Shown here: in pieces, positions 4,876 to 21,870 of the stretch
Layout: every line of letters starts with the position of its first letter
Position numbering within the stretch: the stretch's first letter is position 1
The notes under the pieces: generated by a model
Told to the model about the DNA's origin: nothing
Seen by the model: only the letters and a program-made list of their open reading frames with translations
Databases searched by the model: none
Translations under genes and position numbers: made by a program
From: an uncultured Nitrososphaera sp.
GTDB taxonomy: Archaea; Thermoproteota; Nitrososphaeria; Nitrososphaerales; Nitrososphaeraceae
Length of the DNA: 21,992 nucleotides
Assembly: GCF_946478925.1 (NCBI RefSeq)
Contig: NZ_CAMLDP010000026.1
Location: 1 to 21,992, forward strand
Reading direction: 5' to 3'

Positions 4876-5047
4876 GCCGGATGCAGTCTGCGGGCTAGAG
4901 TAATAACCCTAACTAATGCTGTACAGAGCATGTCAGAATATCACGGCGGCGACTGCGACCGGGCCGGGTCGGCCGGTCAAGCAACCACAGCTAGCTTTAT
5001 TTCCAACATCCATCTTCTTCCCACGTACATACATACACAAACATACG

Positions 5048-5116
5048 CAGGCTATGGCATTAGCCTTGGCGCAAGCCTGAACCGCCCTTTTCCAGAGGTG
5101 CTGATAATGCCTACCA
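5048..5116 (+). promoter_or_regulatory. Fluoride riboswitch (crcB motif)
   Basis: The sequence matches the fluoride-sensing crcB RNA. P1 is AGGCU/AGCCU (5049-5053 with 5062-5066). Its loop AUGGCAUU carries GGCAUU, which pairs perfectly with AAUGCC at 5106-5111 to form the known pseudoknot. The hallmark 3' block GCUGAUAAUGCCUACC (5100-5115) is present, as is the AACCGC joining block (5080-5085). A GGC-GCAA-GCC mini-hairpin (5068-5077) lies between P1 and the AACC block. The RNA ends 43 bases before the start of crcB, the fluoride exporter this RNA class normally controls. A TATA-like AGCTTTATTT (about 4991-5000) would place the transcript start just upstream. The class is known from archaea as well as bacteria. 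Confidence 0.93.
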
Positions 5117-5129
5117 GAAAACAGAGGAC

Positions 5130-5162
5130 ATGAAGAAAATGGTGGGCACAAGAGAAAAATGA
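5130..5162 (+). CDS. Possible 10-codon leader ORF before crcB
   Basis: ATG at 5130 opens a 10-codon frame (MKKMVGTREK) whose TGA overlaps the crcB start codon as ATGA. It lies between the riboswitch and crcB, where the expression platform must act. It could couple crcB translation to an upstream start, or be chance. An alternative is that the GGTGGG at 5141-5146 simply serves as ribosome-binding site for crcB. Confidence 0.25.
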   Translation: MKKMVGTREK

Positions 5163-5539
5163 AAGGAATAGAATTTGCGCTGCTTGCGGCAGGTGCGGTC
5201 GCTGGCGCGTTTCTGCGCTACAAGATGGCCGAGTCGCCGGTTGTGCTAGGCACGCTACCAGTAAACGTGCTGATAATCAACATTGCAGGCAGTTTCATCC
5301 TGGGCGTGTTTTCGATACTTGCCGCGGTATGGAACCTGGACTCTCGCTACTCATTGCTGGTGGCAATCGGCTTTTGCGGCTCACTCACCACCATGTCATC
5401 GTTTGCGCTAGAGACGAACAACCTTCTTGAGAACAGGCAGCTTGGCCTAGTTGCGCTTAACATAGCAGCCAACGTCGGCCTGTCGATAGGCGCGGTGATT
5501 GGCGGAAGGGCGATTGCAAGCGTGCTCTTGAAAGGATAA
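5159..5539 (+). CDS. crcB: Fluoride ion channel CrcB/Fluc
   Basis: The protein has 126 residues and four membrane helices, the usual size for a Fluc channel, which works as an antiparallel dimer and lets fluoride leave the cell. Family signatures are present: GAFLRY near residue 20, NIAGSFILGVFS near 42-53, and GFCGSLTTMSSFALE (about 78-92) with the conserved glycine-rich turn and TT/S residues of the third helix. The start is ATG at 5159, overlapping the stop of a tiny leader frame. The fluoride riboswitch immediately upstream makes the assignment strong and points to induction by fluoride. Confidence 0.95.
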   Translation: MKGIEFALLAAGAVAGAFLRYKMAESPVVLGTLPVNVLIINIAGSFILGVFSILAAVWNLDSRYSLLVAIGFCGSLTTMSSFALETNNLLENRQLGLVALNIAANVGLSIGAVIGGRAIASVLLKG

Positions 5540-12899: not shown

Positions 12900-13048
12900 G
12901 CTGAGCAAGCAGGCTACGTGATTAGACCGGCATACACCTGGCTGCCCACACACGTATGTATTGTCGTAATTGCTTCTCCAAATATGCGCACAAATAGGAT
13001 AGCGGCTCGTCCAGTAATTAGCAGACTAGGCCATCGTACTTGCGCTAT

Positions 13049-13220
13049 GCACTTATTCATGAATAAGCAAATCTTAAGAGCGATACTGCTTACCGGTTTG
13101 CTATCAGGCATGATAGCAAACGTGCCTGAGCAAGTCACAACGTAGCATAACCTGCGTACTGCATTCAGCCAGACCCCTGCCGGTTTTTGCCTAATCGCGG
13201 CAGGGGCTATAATTTTTAGT
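13049..13220 (+). ncRNA. Candidate structured RNA, copy A
   Basis: The unit starts with a 16-bp palindrome (CTTATTCATGAATAAG, 13052-13067). A 10-bp stem follows (GTTTGCTATC 13096-13105 with GATAGCAAAC 13112-13121), whose loop AGGCA (13106-13110) can pair with TGCCT (13123-13127) as a pseudoknot. It ends in a GC-rich stem, CCCCTGCCG 13174-13182 with CGGCAGGGG 13198-13206, followed by a T-rich tail like a terminator. A diverged second copy at 13663-13888 keeps the pairing with different bases. The strand is inferred from the terminator-like end. No known RNA family is recognised, and no good promoter was found right before it. A structured DNA element, such as an origin or MITE, is the main alternative. 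Confidence 0.4.
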
Positions 13221-13345
13221 CAAGCATGAGTCAGGACGTCATGCCAAAGCAAGTTCTCACAGAACAACCTACATACACATACATATTGAAAGCAATGCCG
13301 GCCCGTGAGCTTACAGGTAAATGATCAGGTGTTAGAAAAATTTCA

Positions 13346-13363
13346 CTAGCTCAAAAGAGCTAG
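13346..13363. repeat. Perfect hairpin CTAGCTC-AAAA-GAGCTAG
   Basis: A 7-bp perfect stem with an AAAA loop, between the two RNA-like copies. It is followed by further GCTAG/TAGC sequence but no T run. The role is unknown. Confidence 0.5.
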
Positions 13364-13502
13364 CTGTAGCTTCATCTTAGAGCTGACTTGTGTACGAGAA
13401 GTTTTTCGCTTTGCAAACCCATTATATTTTGACAATCGTATAATATTTTACCGCAAGCAAGAACGGGGTGACTTGCAGAAAGGCATCGAACAGCACACGG
13501 CA

Positions 13503-13539
13503 CCTAACCGGCGACGGTTATATCGCCACGCCGGTTAGG
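13503..13539. repeat. 11-bp GC-rich hairpin
   Basis: CCTAACCGGCG (13503-13513) and CGCCGGTTAGG (13529-13539) pair perfectly around a 15-base loop, and an alternative inner stem GGCGA/TCGCC (13510-13514 with 13523-13527) competes with it. It is preceded by another small stem, GCAAG/CTTGC (13457-13461 with 13472-13476), and by a TATA-like stretch at 13438-13451. A third, unrelated structured RNA or a terminator is possible. Confidence 0.5.
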
Positions 13540-13662
13540 GCAGTAAATTATTTTCAGAATAAAACATTTTGTAGAGTAAAATGGTTCGTTTCAATCATGT
13601 TTACTGCATAAAACGCACGAGTGTAGAATTATACCTTTTCGATTATGATTGTATTACATTGT

Positions 13663-13888
13663 ACACTTACCAGCCAATAAGCAATCCTTAAGAACGATAT
13701 TCTTTGATAGTTCGCAATCAGGCATTGCACAACCGTGCCTGAGAACATCAAACGTAACGCGGTGCTTGACTTGGTCGGCCGCGCCCCTGCCGGTATAGTT
13801 GTTGTCTGGTATCGGCAGGGGCTAATTATGATTTACCCCTGCCGCGATTAAACGATCGGAGGTAGCAGCGGCAGGGGCTTTTGCCATG
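13663..13888 (+). ncRNA. Candidate structured RNA, copy B with a double GC hairpin
   Basis: This is homologous to copy A: it shares CACTTA, AATAAGCAA, TTAAGA, ATCAGGCAT, CGTGCCTGAG and CCCCTGCCGG in the same order and similar spacing. The pseudoknot hairpin is rebuilt with different bases: GCAAT (13714-13718) with ATTGC (13724-13728), extended by GTT/AAC; loop CAGGC pairs with GCCTG (13737-13741). Two GC-rich stems follow, GCCCCTGCCG/CGGCAGGGGC (13783-13792 with 13813-13822) and CCCCTGCCGC/GCGGCAGGGG (13836-13845 with 13868-13877). The inner arms can also pair with each other, and the last arm runs into CTTTT. Function unknown. Confidence 0.4.
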
Positions 13889-14082
13889 TTCATGAATTCA
13901 GCTTACATCATTACATGCTCGGGCACGATTGCAGACATGCTCGATACTATTAGTTAGAAGGTCCCATAATAATGAGTATCGTGCAAAATATAGTCGCTAA
14001 ATGTGTTATTGGACTGTTGCATTGTGCAAATACAACAAGTCTACAGGCAAACATGCATTTTTAGACCAAATATTTGAAACAA

Positions 14083-14235: not shown

Positions 14236-14289
14236 ATGAACGACAACATGAACAAACTATTTTCGTTTGTAACGAGGGGTGCCAGATGA
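14236..14289 (+). CDS. Possible 17-codon leader ORF before the wHTH gene
   Basis: ATG at 14236 opens a 17-codon frame (MNDNMNKLFSFVTRGAR) whose TGA overlaps the start of the next gene as ATGA. GAGGGGTG at 14274-14281, inside this frame, is a good ribosome-binding site for the downstream gene. It could be a leader peptide coupled to the regulator, or chance. Confidence 0.25.
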   Translation: MNDNMNKLFSFVTRGAR

Positions 14290-14609
14290 AAAAGCGTGCC
14301 AATAACCGCACCAGGTTCGAGATTGTACACGATATTCTAGCGCTGTGTCTGTCACCGCAGAAACAAACTCAAATTATGAGCAGCGTGCGCCTAAGTTATA
14401 ACCAGACAATTTACTACTTGGCTGTCTTGCTTGATAACGGCCTAATAGAAAGCGAGCTGCGCGAAAGTGTGACAGACTTGGGGCAAACACGGTACGCAAA
14501 GACTACCGAGAAAGGTCGTGAGTTATTACAAATGTTGGCCAGCACAATCAAAGCGACAGAATCAATTTTCGAGACAATATCAAAAGCCAAATTGCAAGCT
14601 ATGGTCTAA
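14286..14609 (+). CDS. Winged-helix transcriptional regulator (HTH_45/COG3432-like)
   Basis: A 107-residue protein with the pattern of small archaeal winged-helix regulators: a basic start (MKKRANNRTRFEIVHDILAL), then a helix-turn-helix (KQTQIMSSVRLSYNQTIYYL), a recognition region and wing (LLDNGLIESELRE, then GQTRYAKTTEKGRELL), and a last helix likely used for dimerisation. Relatives occur widely on archaeal chromosomes, viruses and plasmids and bind DNA as dimers. The start is ATG at 14286 with GAGGGGTG five bases before it. It is the only recognisable regulator in the putative integrated element; the inverted repeats around could be its targets (inference). Confidence 0.8.
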   Translation: MKKRANNRTRFEIVHDILALCLSPQKQTQIMSSVRLSYNQTIYYLAVLLDNGLIESELRESVTDLGQTRYAKTTEKGRELLQMLASTIKATESIFETISKAKLQAMV

Positions 14610-14665: not shown

Positions 14666-14823
14666 CATAAAAGACATCTTCTGGCAATCGGGCTAGTATT
14701 GGTTAGATCTCTTTCTGTCAAAGTCAAGACAGATACACAAACGACAGCAAAACCGTATACAGCCGAACGAGCAGGTAACTCCGGCGGTCTTAAGTTCTGC
14801 GGAGGAGACAAGCGAAAAACAAG

Positions 14824-14898
14824 TGGATGGGGAGAGATTCGGACTCTCGACCACCTGTGTGTGAGACAGGTATCCTAACCAGACTAGACCACCCATCC
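14824..14898 (-). tRNA. tRNA-Val (anticodon CAC)
   Basis: Read on the minus strand, a full cloverleaf is present: acceptor GGATGGG (14898-14892) with CCCATCC (14831-14825), a D arm with TAGTCTGGTTAGGA, an anticodon stem CCTGT/ACAGG around CTCACAC (anticodon CAC, reading GUG), variable loop TGGTC, and T arm GAGAG-TCCGAAT-CTCTC. The discriminator is A. CCA is not encoded, and there is no intron. A T5 run (minus strand, 14819-14815) follows as terminator. Its 3' half is partly duplicated at 12364-12390, marking it as a likely integration target. Confidence 0.95.
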
Positions 14899-20901: not shown

Positions 20902-21870
20902 CTATTCTAGGATTGGGATTGCAAGCTCTAGGTCCGGCGCAGAATCCGGCTCATCCCAGTCAAGGTGGCTGTCTGCGTCAAAGATCTCGCCGAGCGGGTC
21001 GTACGCGTCAAAGCGAGTCTTTTGCGGCGCCGAGGCTACGACATGCACGCGCACGCCGTCGGTTGCCGTCGCAAGCGATGACATGGCGACCTCCGTAGTC
21101 CCTTCTTCCTTGAATATGCCCTGCGCATAGCCCACTAGCTGGTTCAATTGTGATATGGGGAGCGTCTCGCCTCCCATGACGTACACGACTGTGCGCCTTA
21201 TGGCGCCTGAATCGATGACATTTTGGTACAGCATCGAGACAGAGTCCCGGAGGCACGCCTGCGAGTCTCCCGACGCCTTGCTGGTCGAAAGTATGTTCAT
21301 GTCCGGCCTGACGCCCCTTGAGGCAAGGGACGATGCCACCTCGATTATCGCGCCGTTGGTGGCAGAATAGCATTCCTCCTTTGAGAGCTCGGGATTATTA
21401 TCAAGAAACGCGTCGTTGTCCATGACTACAATAGAGTGAGACGCTTCGCGCATCCGTCTCAGCGACACGCCTGCCGTAAACATGCGGTCCTTCTCGAAAC
21501 CAAAAGGCATGATGGCAAAAGAGATCACGGTGCTGGTCTTGCGGGCGACGCTGCAGACCACGGGCGCCATTGCCGCGCCTGCCCTGCCGGCAAGGTTTGC
21601 GATGACAATTATGGTGCCAAAGCCCTCAAGCTTGGAGCGGATCTGCTCTTGCTTTGCAGACGCAAAAGACCTCAGCTTGTACGTCGAGGGATTGACCCAC
21701 TTGCCTGAATTAACAAGAATAGAATTGTTGTCGTCAAGGTCGCGTTTGTCGTTGCTCACAAGGAGGCACTCGCAGCCTATCGCTTCGCTTGCCTTTTTTG
21801 CCAGCCTGCTTCCTGCGCCGCCTATACCTACGACAAGTAATGGATTTTTGATCAAAACGTCTTCCGACAC
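20902..21870 (-). CDS. Divergent FtsZ/tubulin-superfamily protein
   Basis: The protein has 322 residues. It starts like FtsZ (LLVVGIGGAGSRLAKKA, GxGGAG at 15-20), then NLAGRAGAAMAPVVCSVAR (92-110) where FtsZ has GGGTGTGAAPVVA, MPFGFEKDRM (121-130, FtsZ LPFxFEG) and VVMDNDAFLD (148-157, FtsZ IPNDRL). The C-terminal domain also matches (TVVYVMGGETLPISQLNQL; DGVRVHVVAS). The tubulin GTP signature is broken and the T7 catalytic NxDFAD is replaced by PDMNILSTSKASG (about 189-201), so it probably does not hydrolyse GTP like FtsZ. Thaumarchaea divide with Cdv proteins, so its role is open. The start is GTG at 21870, with GGGAGA upstream. The acidic tail (residues 289-318) is rich in Asp. Confidence 0.85.
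   Translation of the reverse strand: MSEDVLIKNPLLVVGIGGAGSRLAKKASEAIGCECLLVSNDKRDLDDNNSILVNSGKWVNPSTYKLRSFASAKQEQIRSKLEGFGTIIVIANLAGRAGAAMAPVVCSVARKTSTVISFAIMPFGFEKDRMFTAGVSLRRMREASHSIVVMDNDAFLDNNPELSKEECYSATNGAIIEVASSLASRGVRPDMNILSTSKASGDSQACLRDSVSMLYQNVIDSGAIRRTVVYVMGGETLPISQLNQLVGYAQGIFKEEGTTEVAMSSLATATDGVRVHVVASAPQKTRFDAYDPLGEIFDADSHLDWDEPDSAPDLELAIPILE

Follow-up and report, generated by a model that had tools for sequence, protein, structure and literature searches.

The window analysed here, a stretch of 21,992 nucleotides of DNA from an uncultured Nitrososphaera sp., likely contains three small RNA genes, each free-standing and with its own promoter, that belong to a multicopy family specific to this lineage. 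The unit consists of a BRE/TATA-like promoter, a hairpin P1 at the predicted 5' end, usually the sequence GCAAGT, a variable linker and a GC-rich hairpin P2. At least 25 copies were collected in all, three of them in the window, at least 16 in the related genome G028 and at least six in the related genome G044, both from soil ammonia-oxidizing archaea. The structure of the unit, its promoter spacing and its conservation were computed, and transcription is what we infer. The RNAs would probably act in trans, and a function as regulatory RNAs appears most likely.

Three copies of the unit in the window

The first-pass annotation of this DNA had described two diverged copies of an RNA-like unit with shared ordered blocks. 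Both are present at a spacing of about 614 nt, with 76% identity over the 50 nt of block D1 and with blocks D2, D4 and D5 also in common. These copies (A and B) lie on the plus strand; facing copy B, the minus strand carries a third one (C). The array and the gene beside it comprise the following features.

13062 to 13081, plus strand: promoter-like box of copy A, upstream element AATAAGCAAAT and TATA-like CTTAAGAGC, with a spacing that is fixed across copies
13103, plus strand: predicted transcription start of copy A, a purine that follows a pyrimidine and immediately precedes P1
13104 to 13129, plus strand: hairpin P1 of copy A, 9 bp with the 8-nt loop ATAGCAAA
13130 to 13173, plus strand: linker of copy A, opening with GCAAGTC
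13174 to 13206, plus strand: hairpin P2 of copy A, CCCCTGCCG/CGGCAGGGG, terminator-like, with a T run behind it
13676 to 13695, plus strand: promoter-like box of copy B, AATAAGCAATC / CTTAAGAAC
13718 to 13742, plus strand: hairpin P1 of copy B, 8 of 9 pairs, 7-nt loop
13743 to 13782, plus strand: linker of copy B, GAACATC..., diverged
13783 to 13822, plus strand: hairpin P2 of copy B, GCCCCTGCCGGTAT/GTATCGGCAGGGGC
13836 to 13877, minus strand: hairpin P2 of copy C, CCCCTGCCGC/GCGGCAGGGG
13919 to 13944, minus strand: hairpin P1 of copy C, TCGAGCATG/CGTGCCCGA, 8 of 9 pairs
13966 to 13974, minus strand: TATA-like element of copy C, CATTATTAT
14286 to 14609, plus strand: HTH_45 winged-helix protein beside the array (Pfam PF14947, E 1.4e-15)

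GC-rich stems had also been noted at the end of both copies. They are present, but the stem at 13836-13877, within the interval that had been assigned to copy B, belongs to copy C on the minus strand. Copies B and C are convergent, tail to tail. In copy C, pair 3 of P1 is G-C instead of A-T and pair 4 is A.C. Copies A and B are found by the family covariance model described below with 53.3 bits (E 8.3e-11) and 34.4 bits (E 3.9e-6), both copies being part of the model's own alignment, and copy C, which is absent from that alignment, with 29.5 bits (E 6.3e-5, filters off). The three predicted RNAs fold with z values of -3.58, -3.95 and -2.52 for A, B and C, respectively; the fold of copy C was equalled by 4 of 200 shuffled sequences.

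A further GC hairpin (CCTAACCGGCG/CGCCGGTTAGG, 13503-13539) is located downstream of an AT-rich stretch in the region 13435-13545, where GCAAGTCACCCC at 13465-13476 on the minus strand resembles the family linker. The covariance model gave no match to this region at E<=5; it may be a relic or a different small RNA. Elsewhere in the window, a fluoride riboswitch aptamer (5041-5120, plus strand, Rfam RF01734, 42.2 bits) is located just upstream of an ORF of 126 amino acids (5159-5539), whose product we take to be a CrcB/Fluc fluoride channel, and a protein of 322 amino acids with a Tubulin/FtsZ-family GTPase domain is encoded at 20902-21870 on the minus strand (PF00091, E 3.7e-17).

Members of the family in related genomes

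As the first-pass annotation had proposed, related genomes were searched with a covariance model, and further copies were found in G028 (2,954,373 bp, presumably N. evergladensis) and G044 (2,527,938 bp, which we take to be the cultured N. viennensis). The genomes compared were 70 members of one family, reached through the adenosylhomocysteinase gene that neighbours the array in the window. With copy A as query, eight places were found in G028 (E 2.1e-8 to 0.0104) and one in G044 (E 3.2e-5); matches at E<=1 occurred in 36 of the 70 genomes, the best E outside G028 and G044 being 0.011.

The list of copies was built from a scripted scan together with a covariance model of 39 positions (R1). The underlying alignment (A2) was made when 19 copies were known and comprised 16 of them, leaving out G028:1984336, G028:1705014 and G028:2559290. 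At E<=1, R1 yielded 17 rows for G028 and seven for G044; in three of the 24, the near-palindromic stem had been matched again on the reverse strand. Fourteen of the 16 copies in G028 are R1 rows; 1984336 was obtained by the script and a 19-bit covariance model match, and 2559290 by the script alone. Two of the 25 copies are doubtful, namely G028:2559290, which has no covariance model match at E<=0.5 and a P2 score reached by 53 of 60 shuffles, and G044:1644271, which is devoid of a TATA-like core. Since scoring covered 150 candidates per genome (95 in the round at E<=0.1), whereas the first look yielded up to about 1600, the copy numbers are lower bounds.

At E<=0.1, R1 matched at least three of the 70 genomes. 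The match in G035 (E 0.024) sits within an ORF of 574 amino acids and was dropped as a copy. At E<=1, matches were also obtained in G001, G039, G041 and G042 (E 0.48-0.98) and, at E 0.31, at G028:2751416; all of these remain outside the count of 25. In G029, presumably N. gargensis, no R1 match was found among the candidates scored, and nothing exceeded 10.8 bits around its adenosylhomocysteinase gene. A strict sequence pattern of the unit was present in two of the 70 genomes, again G028 and G044 only, where the reversed pattern used as a control gave two matches, both in G044, versus three real ones there. Among 400 sampled genomes of the class, drawn from a larger group, the strict pattern was likewise restricted to G028 and G044, and the reversed pattern gave one match, in G044. 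The copies are clustered: five neighbour pairs are less than 1.5 kb apart in G028, versus 0.12 for random placement, and one in G044, versus 0.02. An apparent ORF of 4.7 kb that opens the locus L173 reflects masked sequence rather than a gene.

Predicted promoter and transcription start

Upstream of P1, an AT-rich core is found at a near-constant distance in most copies, and the promoter sequences are of several unlike types. The 24 copies used for all tests of the promoter, of the base at -1, of P2, of the linker and of the pseudoknot exclude copy C and the G035 match. When these were scored with the 9-column core of a TATA matrix derived from 25 tRNA upstream regions, the mean score peaked at -32 from P1, and none of 2000 row rotations reached this value. 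The next-best offsets, -15 and -6, scored -0.12 and -0.29 compared to 0.41 at -32. With 14 mutually dissimilar upstream regions the peak was again at -32 (13 of 2000 rotations). A 14-column promoter matrix was discarded as over-fitted, its best mean being inside P1 (+2), followed by -9.

Within the window, the TATA-like core of copy A starts 31 nt before P1, and its score with the tRNA-derived matrix (1.85) ranks fourth of 102 upstream positions; that of copy B (2.21) ranks sixth of 102. The element CATTATTAT of copy C recurs at the same distance to P1 at G044:919127 and G028:2003325. The base directly before P1 is a purine in all 24 copies, preceded by T at -2 in 20 of them. Given this purine and the TATA core at a fixed distance, we infer that transcription starts at the purine before P1. 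In G044 the predicted starts are the following.

near 370665, plus strand: predicted transcription start
near 897521, plus strand: predicted transcription start
near 919130, plus strand: predicted transcription start
near 574049, minus strand: predicted transcription start

In a mechanical ORF map, the P1 matches lie between ORFs except for three that are inside or overlap short ORFs, namely those at G028:2003325 (101 amino acids) and G044:919127 (89 amino acids) and that of copy A, which is overlapped or contained by the window ORF 12918-13145 (75 amino acids). The TATA core at its fixed distance thus predicts for the unit a promoter of its own in an intergenic region. In front of two copies, upstream of position 1542 in L084 and of 1929 in L113 (minus strand), a second AGTAAG..CTTA(A/G)G-like box is found tens of bases further upstream, which is perhaps a regulatory DNA site.

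Structure of P1, P2 and the linker

P1 has the consensus TCAGRCRYG / CRYGYCTGA with a loop of 7-20 nt; in copy A it is the hairpin TCAGGCATG/CGTGCCTGA. Over 25 copies, 214 of 225 cells are paired, a fraction that is inflated by the way in which copies were selected (at least 7 of 9 pairs in the script; covariance model). When the 3' arms were swapped among the copies, a mean of 203.3 and a maximum of 211 paired cells resulted in 2000 trials. Changes on both sides of a pair occur at six of the nine positions, at pairs 3 and 7 (A-T to G-C), 5 and 9 (G-C to A-T) and 6 and 8 (C-G to T-A). Furthermore, the given strand has 18 G.T as compared to 6 A.C cells, in keeping with an RNA of that strand. 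In the 16-row alignment, 97.9% of the P1 cells pair; this percentage, the number of two-sided cells and the covariation score were not reached by any of 500 shuffled alignments, and two of the five measures, two-sided pairs (2; 222 of 500) and further pair types (6; 442 of 500), were not above the shuffles.

P1 is followed by GCAAG in 19 of 24 copies and by GCCAA in two, and GCAA occurs in 8 of 24 P1 loops. In the linker, the motif (A/T)ACCC, which was picked after looking at the sequences, is present in 13 of 24 copies versus 2.8 expected; more broadly, about half of the copies carry a CAU-n(1-3)-ACCC-like motif. The exact motif is missing from copies A and B and, by reading, from copy C; GCATAACC in copy A is a near match.

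P2 is GC-rich, and its stem sequence differs between the copies while the pairing stays. As the first MAFFT alignment left P2 unaligned, each copy was tested on its own. Fifteen of the 24 copies, with stem sequences unlike each other, had a stem score above that of all 60 shuffles. P2 is unremarkable at G028:1455228 (45 of 60 shuffles), 2557255 (15), 2874210 (8) and 1741728 (7). A consistent terminator-like T tail after P2 was not found in the 24 copies (mean 31.7% T), and because the T runs are inconsistent, termination at P2 remains presumptive.

A coding function of the unit was considered and discarded. An ATG is present at base 7 of P1 in 9 of 25 copies, the loop lengths modulo 3 are distributed over 16, 7 and 2 copies, and the predicted products are unlike each other. 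Thus, by the alignment shuffles, the P2 shuffles, the comparison of loci described below and this coding check, the unit has the properties of a structured, conserved, non-coding RNA.

Conservation at orthologous loci

Three loci are orthologous between G044 and G028 by their neighbourhood: 370662/1455228, 897518+897734/1984122+1984336 and 919127/2003325. For the first members of these loci, in this order, the identities are 0.38, 0.53 and 0.53 at -150..-101, 0.44, 0.62 and 0.78 at -100..-51, 0.96, 0.89 and 0.74 in the promoter (-50..-24) and 0.90, 0.93 and 1.00 in P1, so that in the pair 919127/2003325 the region -100..-51 is more alike than the promoter. In the tandem second copy 897734/1984336, the promoter identity is 0.89 and that of P1 only 0.64, owing to a loop insertion of 12 nt; its stem shows a double change from C-G to T-A. 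A fifth, looser pair (574011/1705392) gave 0.81 for the promoter and 0.63 for P1. Conservation is therefore non-uniform and centred on the promoter, P1 and parts of P2.

Proposed mechanism and alternative explanations

According to the model that we favour, the BRE/TATA-like archaeal promoter of each copy would direct a start at the purine directly before P1, and the resulting RNA, predicted to comprise about 105-115 nt in the window, would contain P1, usually GCAAGT, and the linker, and would end in or after the terminator-like P2. P1, whose stem bases are near-invariant, may in every member protect the 5' end or bind a protein, a shared one given its constancy; the variability of the linker points to differing partners. 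The linker might base-pair with mRNAs, with CAU-n-ACCC as a possible seed for ribosome-binding sites rich in G. This step is a tentative one that we consider rather unlikely; the low rating reflects the absence of the exact motif from all three copies in the window. Against 204 ORF start regions (from 337,502 bases), the seed was equalled by 7 of 60 shuffled sets.

The same RNA genes could instead encode a protein sponge or a scaffold of a ribonucleoprotein, where P1 binds one protein that is titrated by the number of copies and the linker is a mere spacer. We regard this as possible, if still improbable. It would fit the conservation of P1, which in sequence as well as in structure ranks with the least variable parts of the unit, unlike linker and P2, the many and partly tandem copies, and the recurrence of GCAAG directly after P1 and of GCAA in its loops. 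However, each RNA offers a single P1 site and not many, the recurrent linker motif suggests that the linker has a role in some of the members, and the protein bound by P1 would be a hypothetical one.

A riboswitch-like leader or attenuator of downstream genes, with P1 as the sensor and P2 as the terminator, would likewise combine a 5' hairpin with a terminator-like hairpin, and for many copies the next downstream ORF in the mechanical map is indeed on the same strand. The arrangement of the genes makes this explanation improbable. Copies B and C converge, so that neither of them leads into a gene; G044:919127 is followed by a tRNA and G028:2559553 by an ORF of 183 amino acids, both on the opposite strand. 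The Pfam matches of the neighbouring proteins also differ (HTH_45, PNPOx-like, HTH_24 and DUF308; three of ten proteins scanned had no match). Thus, the copies were not found to be located upstream of, and to read into, a common class of genes.

Among the neighbours, genes for HTH_45 proteins recur near the RNA loci (the window gene at 14286-14609, L162, L165 and L175). Relatives of the window protein with 66% and 52% identity adjoin copies in G028. Of 15 loci, 5 have an HTH_45 gene at a distance of up to 2 kb, compared to 0.70 at random (1 of 5000), in a post hoc comparison that counts one orthologous pair of loci twice; this association may reflect shared duplication. A tRNA-Val(CAC) gene (14823-14898, minus strand) adjoins the array in the window, and tRNA genes are also found near G044:919127 and G044:574011 and about 5 kb from the cluster at G028:1705014.

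That the unit is a DNA element, i.e. a MITE, the end of a transposon or a site of folded single-stranded DNA, appears very improbable. Scattered and clustered hairpin-bearing copies in unequal numbers (16 versus 6) would be expected of such an element, but the promoter spacing is fixed across several unlike promoter sequences, three loci are orthologous by neighbourhood, the G.T wobbles are strand-asymmetric and the sequence of P2 differs between the copies. Moreover, the exact pattern had no match in viral contigs, and copy A had no blastn match in plasmids.

Least probable of all is the H-type pseudoknot that the first-pass annotation had proposed around a central hairpin (GTTTGCTATCA/TGATAGCAAAC in copy A): this hairpin is indeed an exact 11-nt inverted repeat with a readable, diverged counterpart in copy B, and the loop of P1 pairs with upstream sequence over 7-8 nt in copy A, G028:163100 and G028:1705014, but only in these three (6 nt in G028:2874210), and the mean over 24 copies is 4.25 nt with the 25 nt upstream versus 3.93 nt with shuffled upstream regions. 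The stem read as the second one of the pseudoknot, TCAGGCATG/CGTGCCTGA, is P1, the hairpin conserved throughout the family. As the upstream strand falls in the interval from the predicted TATA box to the predicted start, it is probably absent from the RNA; since, in addition, its pairing is not kept, the change of paired bases in the central stem between A and B, which had been taken as compensatory, is most likely coincidental. The more general suggestion of a folded RNA kept through sequence change holds at the level of the family, with covariation in P1 and retained pairing in P2.

Returning to free-standing small RNAs with their own promoters as the preferred explanation, one could speculate that the family is a radiating paralogous regulon, in which P1 is read by one dedicated protein and the diverging linkers have mRNA targets of their own, spreading together with the HTH_45 regulators. 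At present we consider this extension doubtful.

Relation to known RNAs

Screening of the whole window against Rfam returned only a tRNA and the fluoride riboswitch, both away from the unit, and nothing was obtained for the region 12900-14000 at E<=1. For eight loci with copies, the matches at E<=0.5 were a tRNA at the edge of a locus and, as the sole non-tRNA match, CcsR1 (RF02791; L147:2451-2517), which is off the unit and below threshold (23.9 bits versus a gathering score of 65.3). No Rfam family thus exceeded its gathering threshold on the unit, which agrees with the first-pass annotation, where its layout was not recognized as that of any RNA family. Among the papers listed in a search for non-coding or small RNAs of Nitrososphaera and of ammonia-oxidizing archaea, none appears, by title and the beginning of the abstract, to describe the family, subscription journals and preprints lying outside this search. 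In a term search, the main text of a study of the copper transcriptome of N. viennensis contained none of the terms ncRNA, non-coding, small RNA, intergenic or antisense (PMC7785015).

We are therefore probably dealing with a new, so far undescribed family of archaeal small RNAs. The predicted 5' ends in G044 are precise and make riboregulation in ammonia-oxidizing archaea directly testable. If it were present in only a few close genomes, the family would also exemplify RNA genes that arise and spread rapidly.

Like the family described here, sRNA154, sRNA162 and sRNA41 of Methanosarcina mazei are intergenic RNA genes. For sRNA154, stem-loops and an anti-RBS loop are described (PMC5867862). 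The M. mazei RNAs stem from an unrelated organism, and their regulation and targets are based on published experiments, whereas the present family is known from its sequence. In the Firmicutes, small RNAs of the RoxS/RsaE and IsrR type act through C-rich seeds. They share with the family linker a C-rich unpaired stretch as a possible seed for pairing with mRNAs; they are bacterial, while the family here is archaeal, carries (A/T)ACCC in about half of its copies and has hypothetical targets. Sponge RNAs of the CsrB type titrate an RNA-binding protein via many binding sites. In CsrB these sites are combined in a single RNA, whereas the family described here has one P1 per RNA and many genes.
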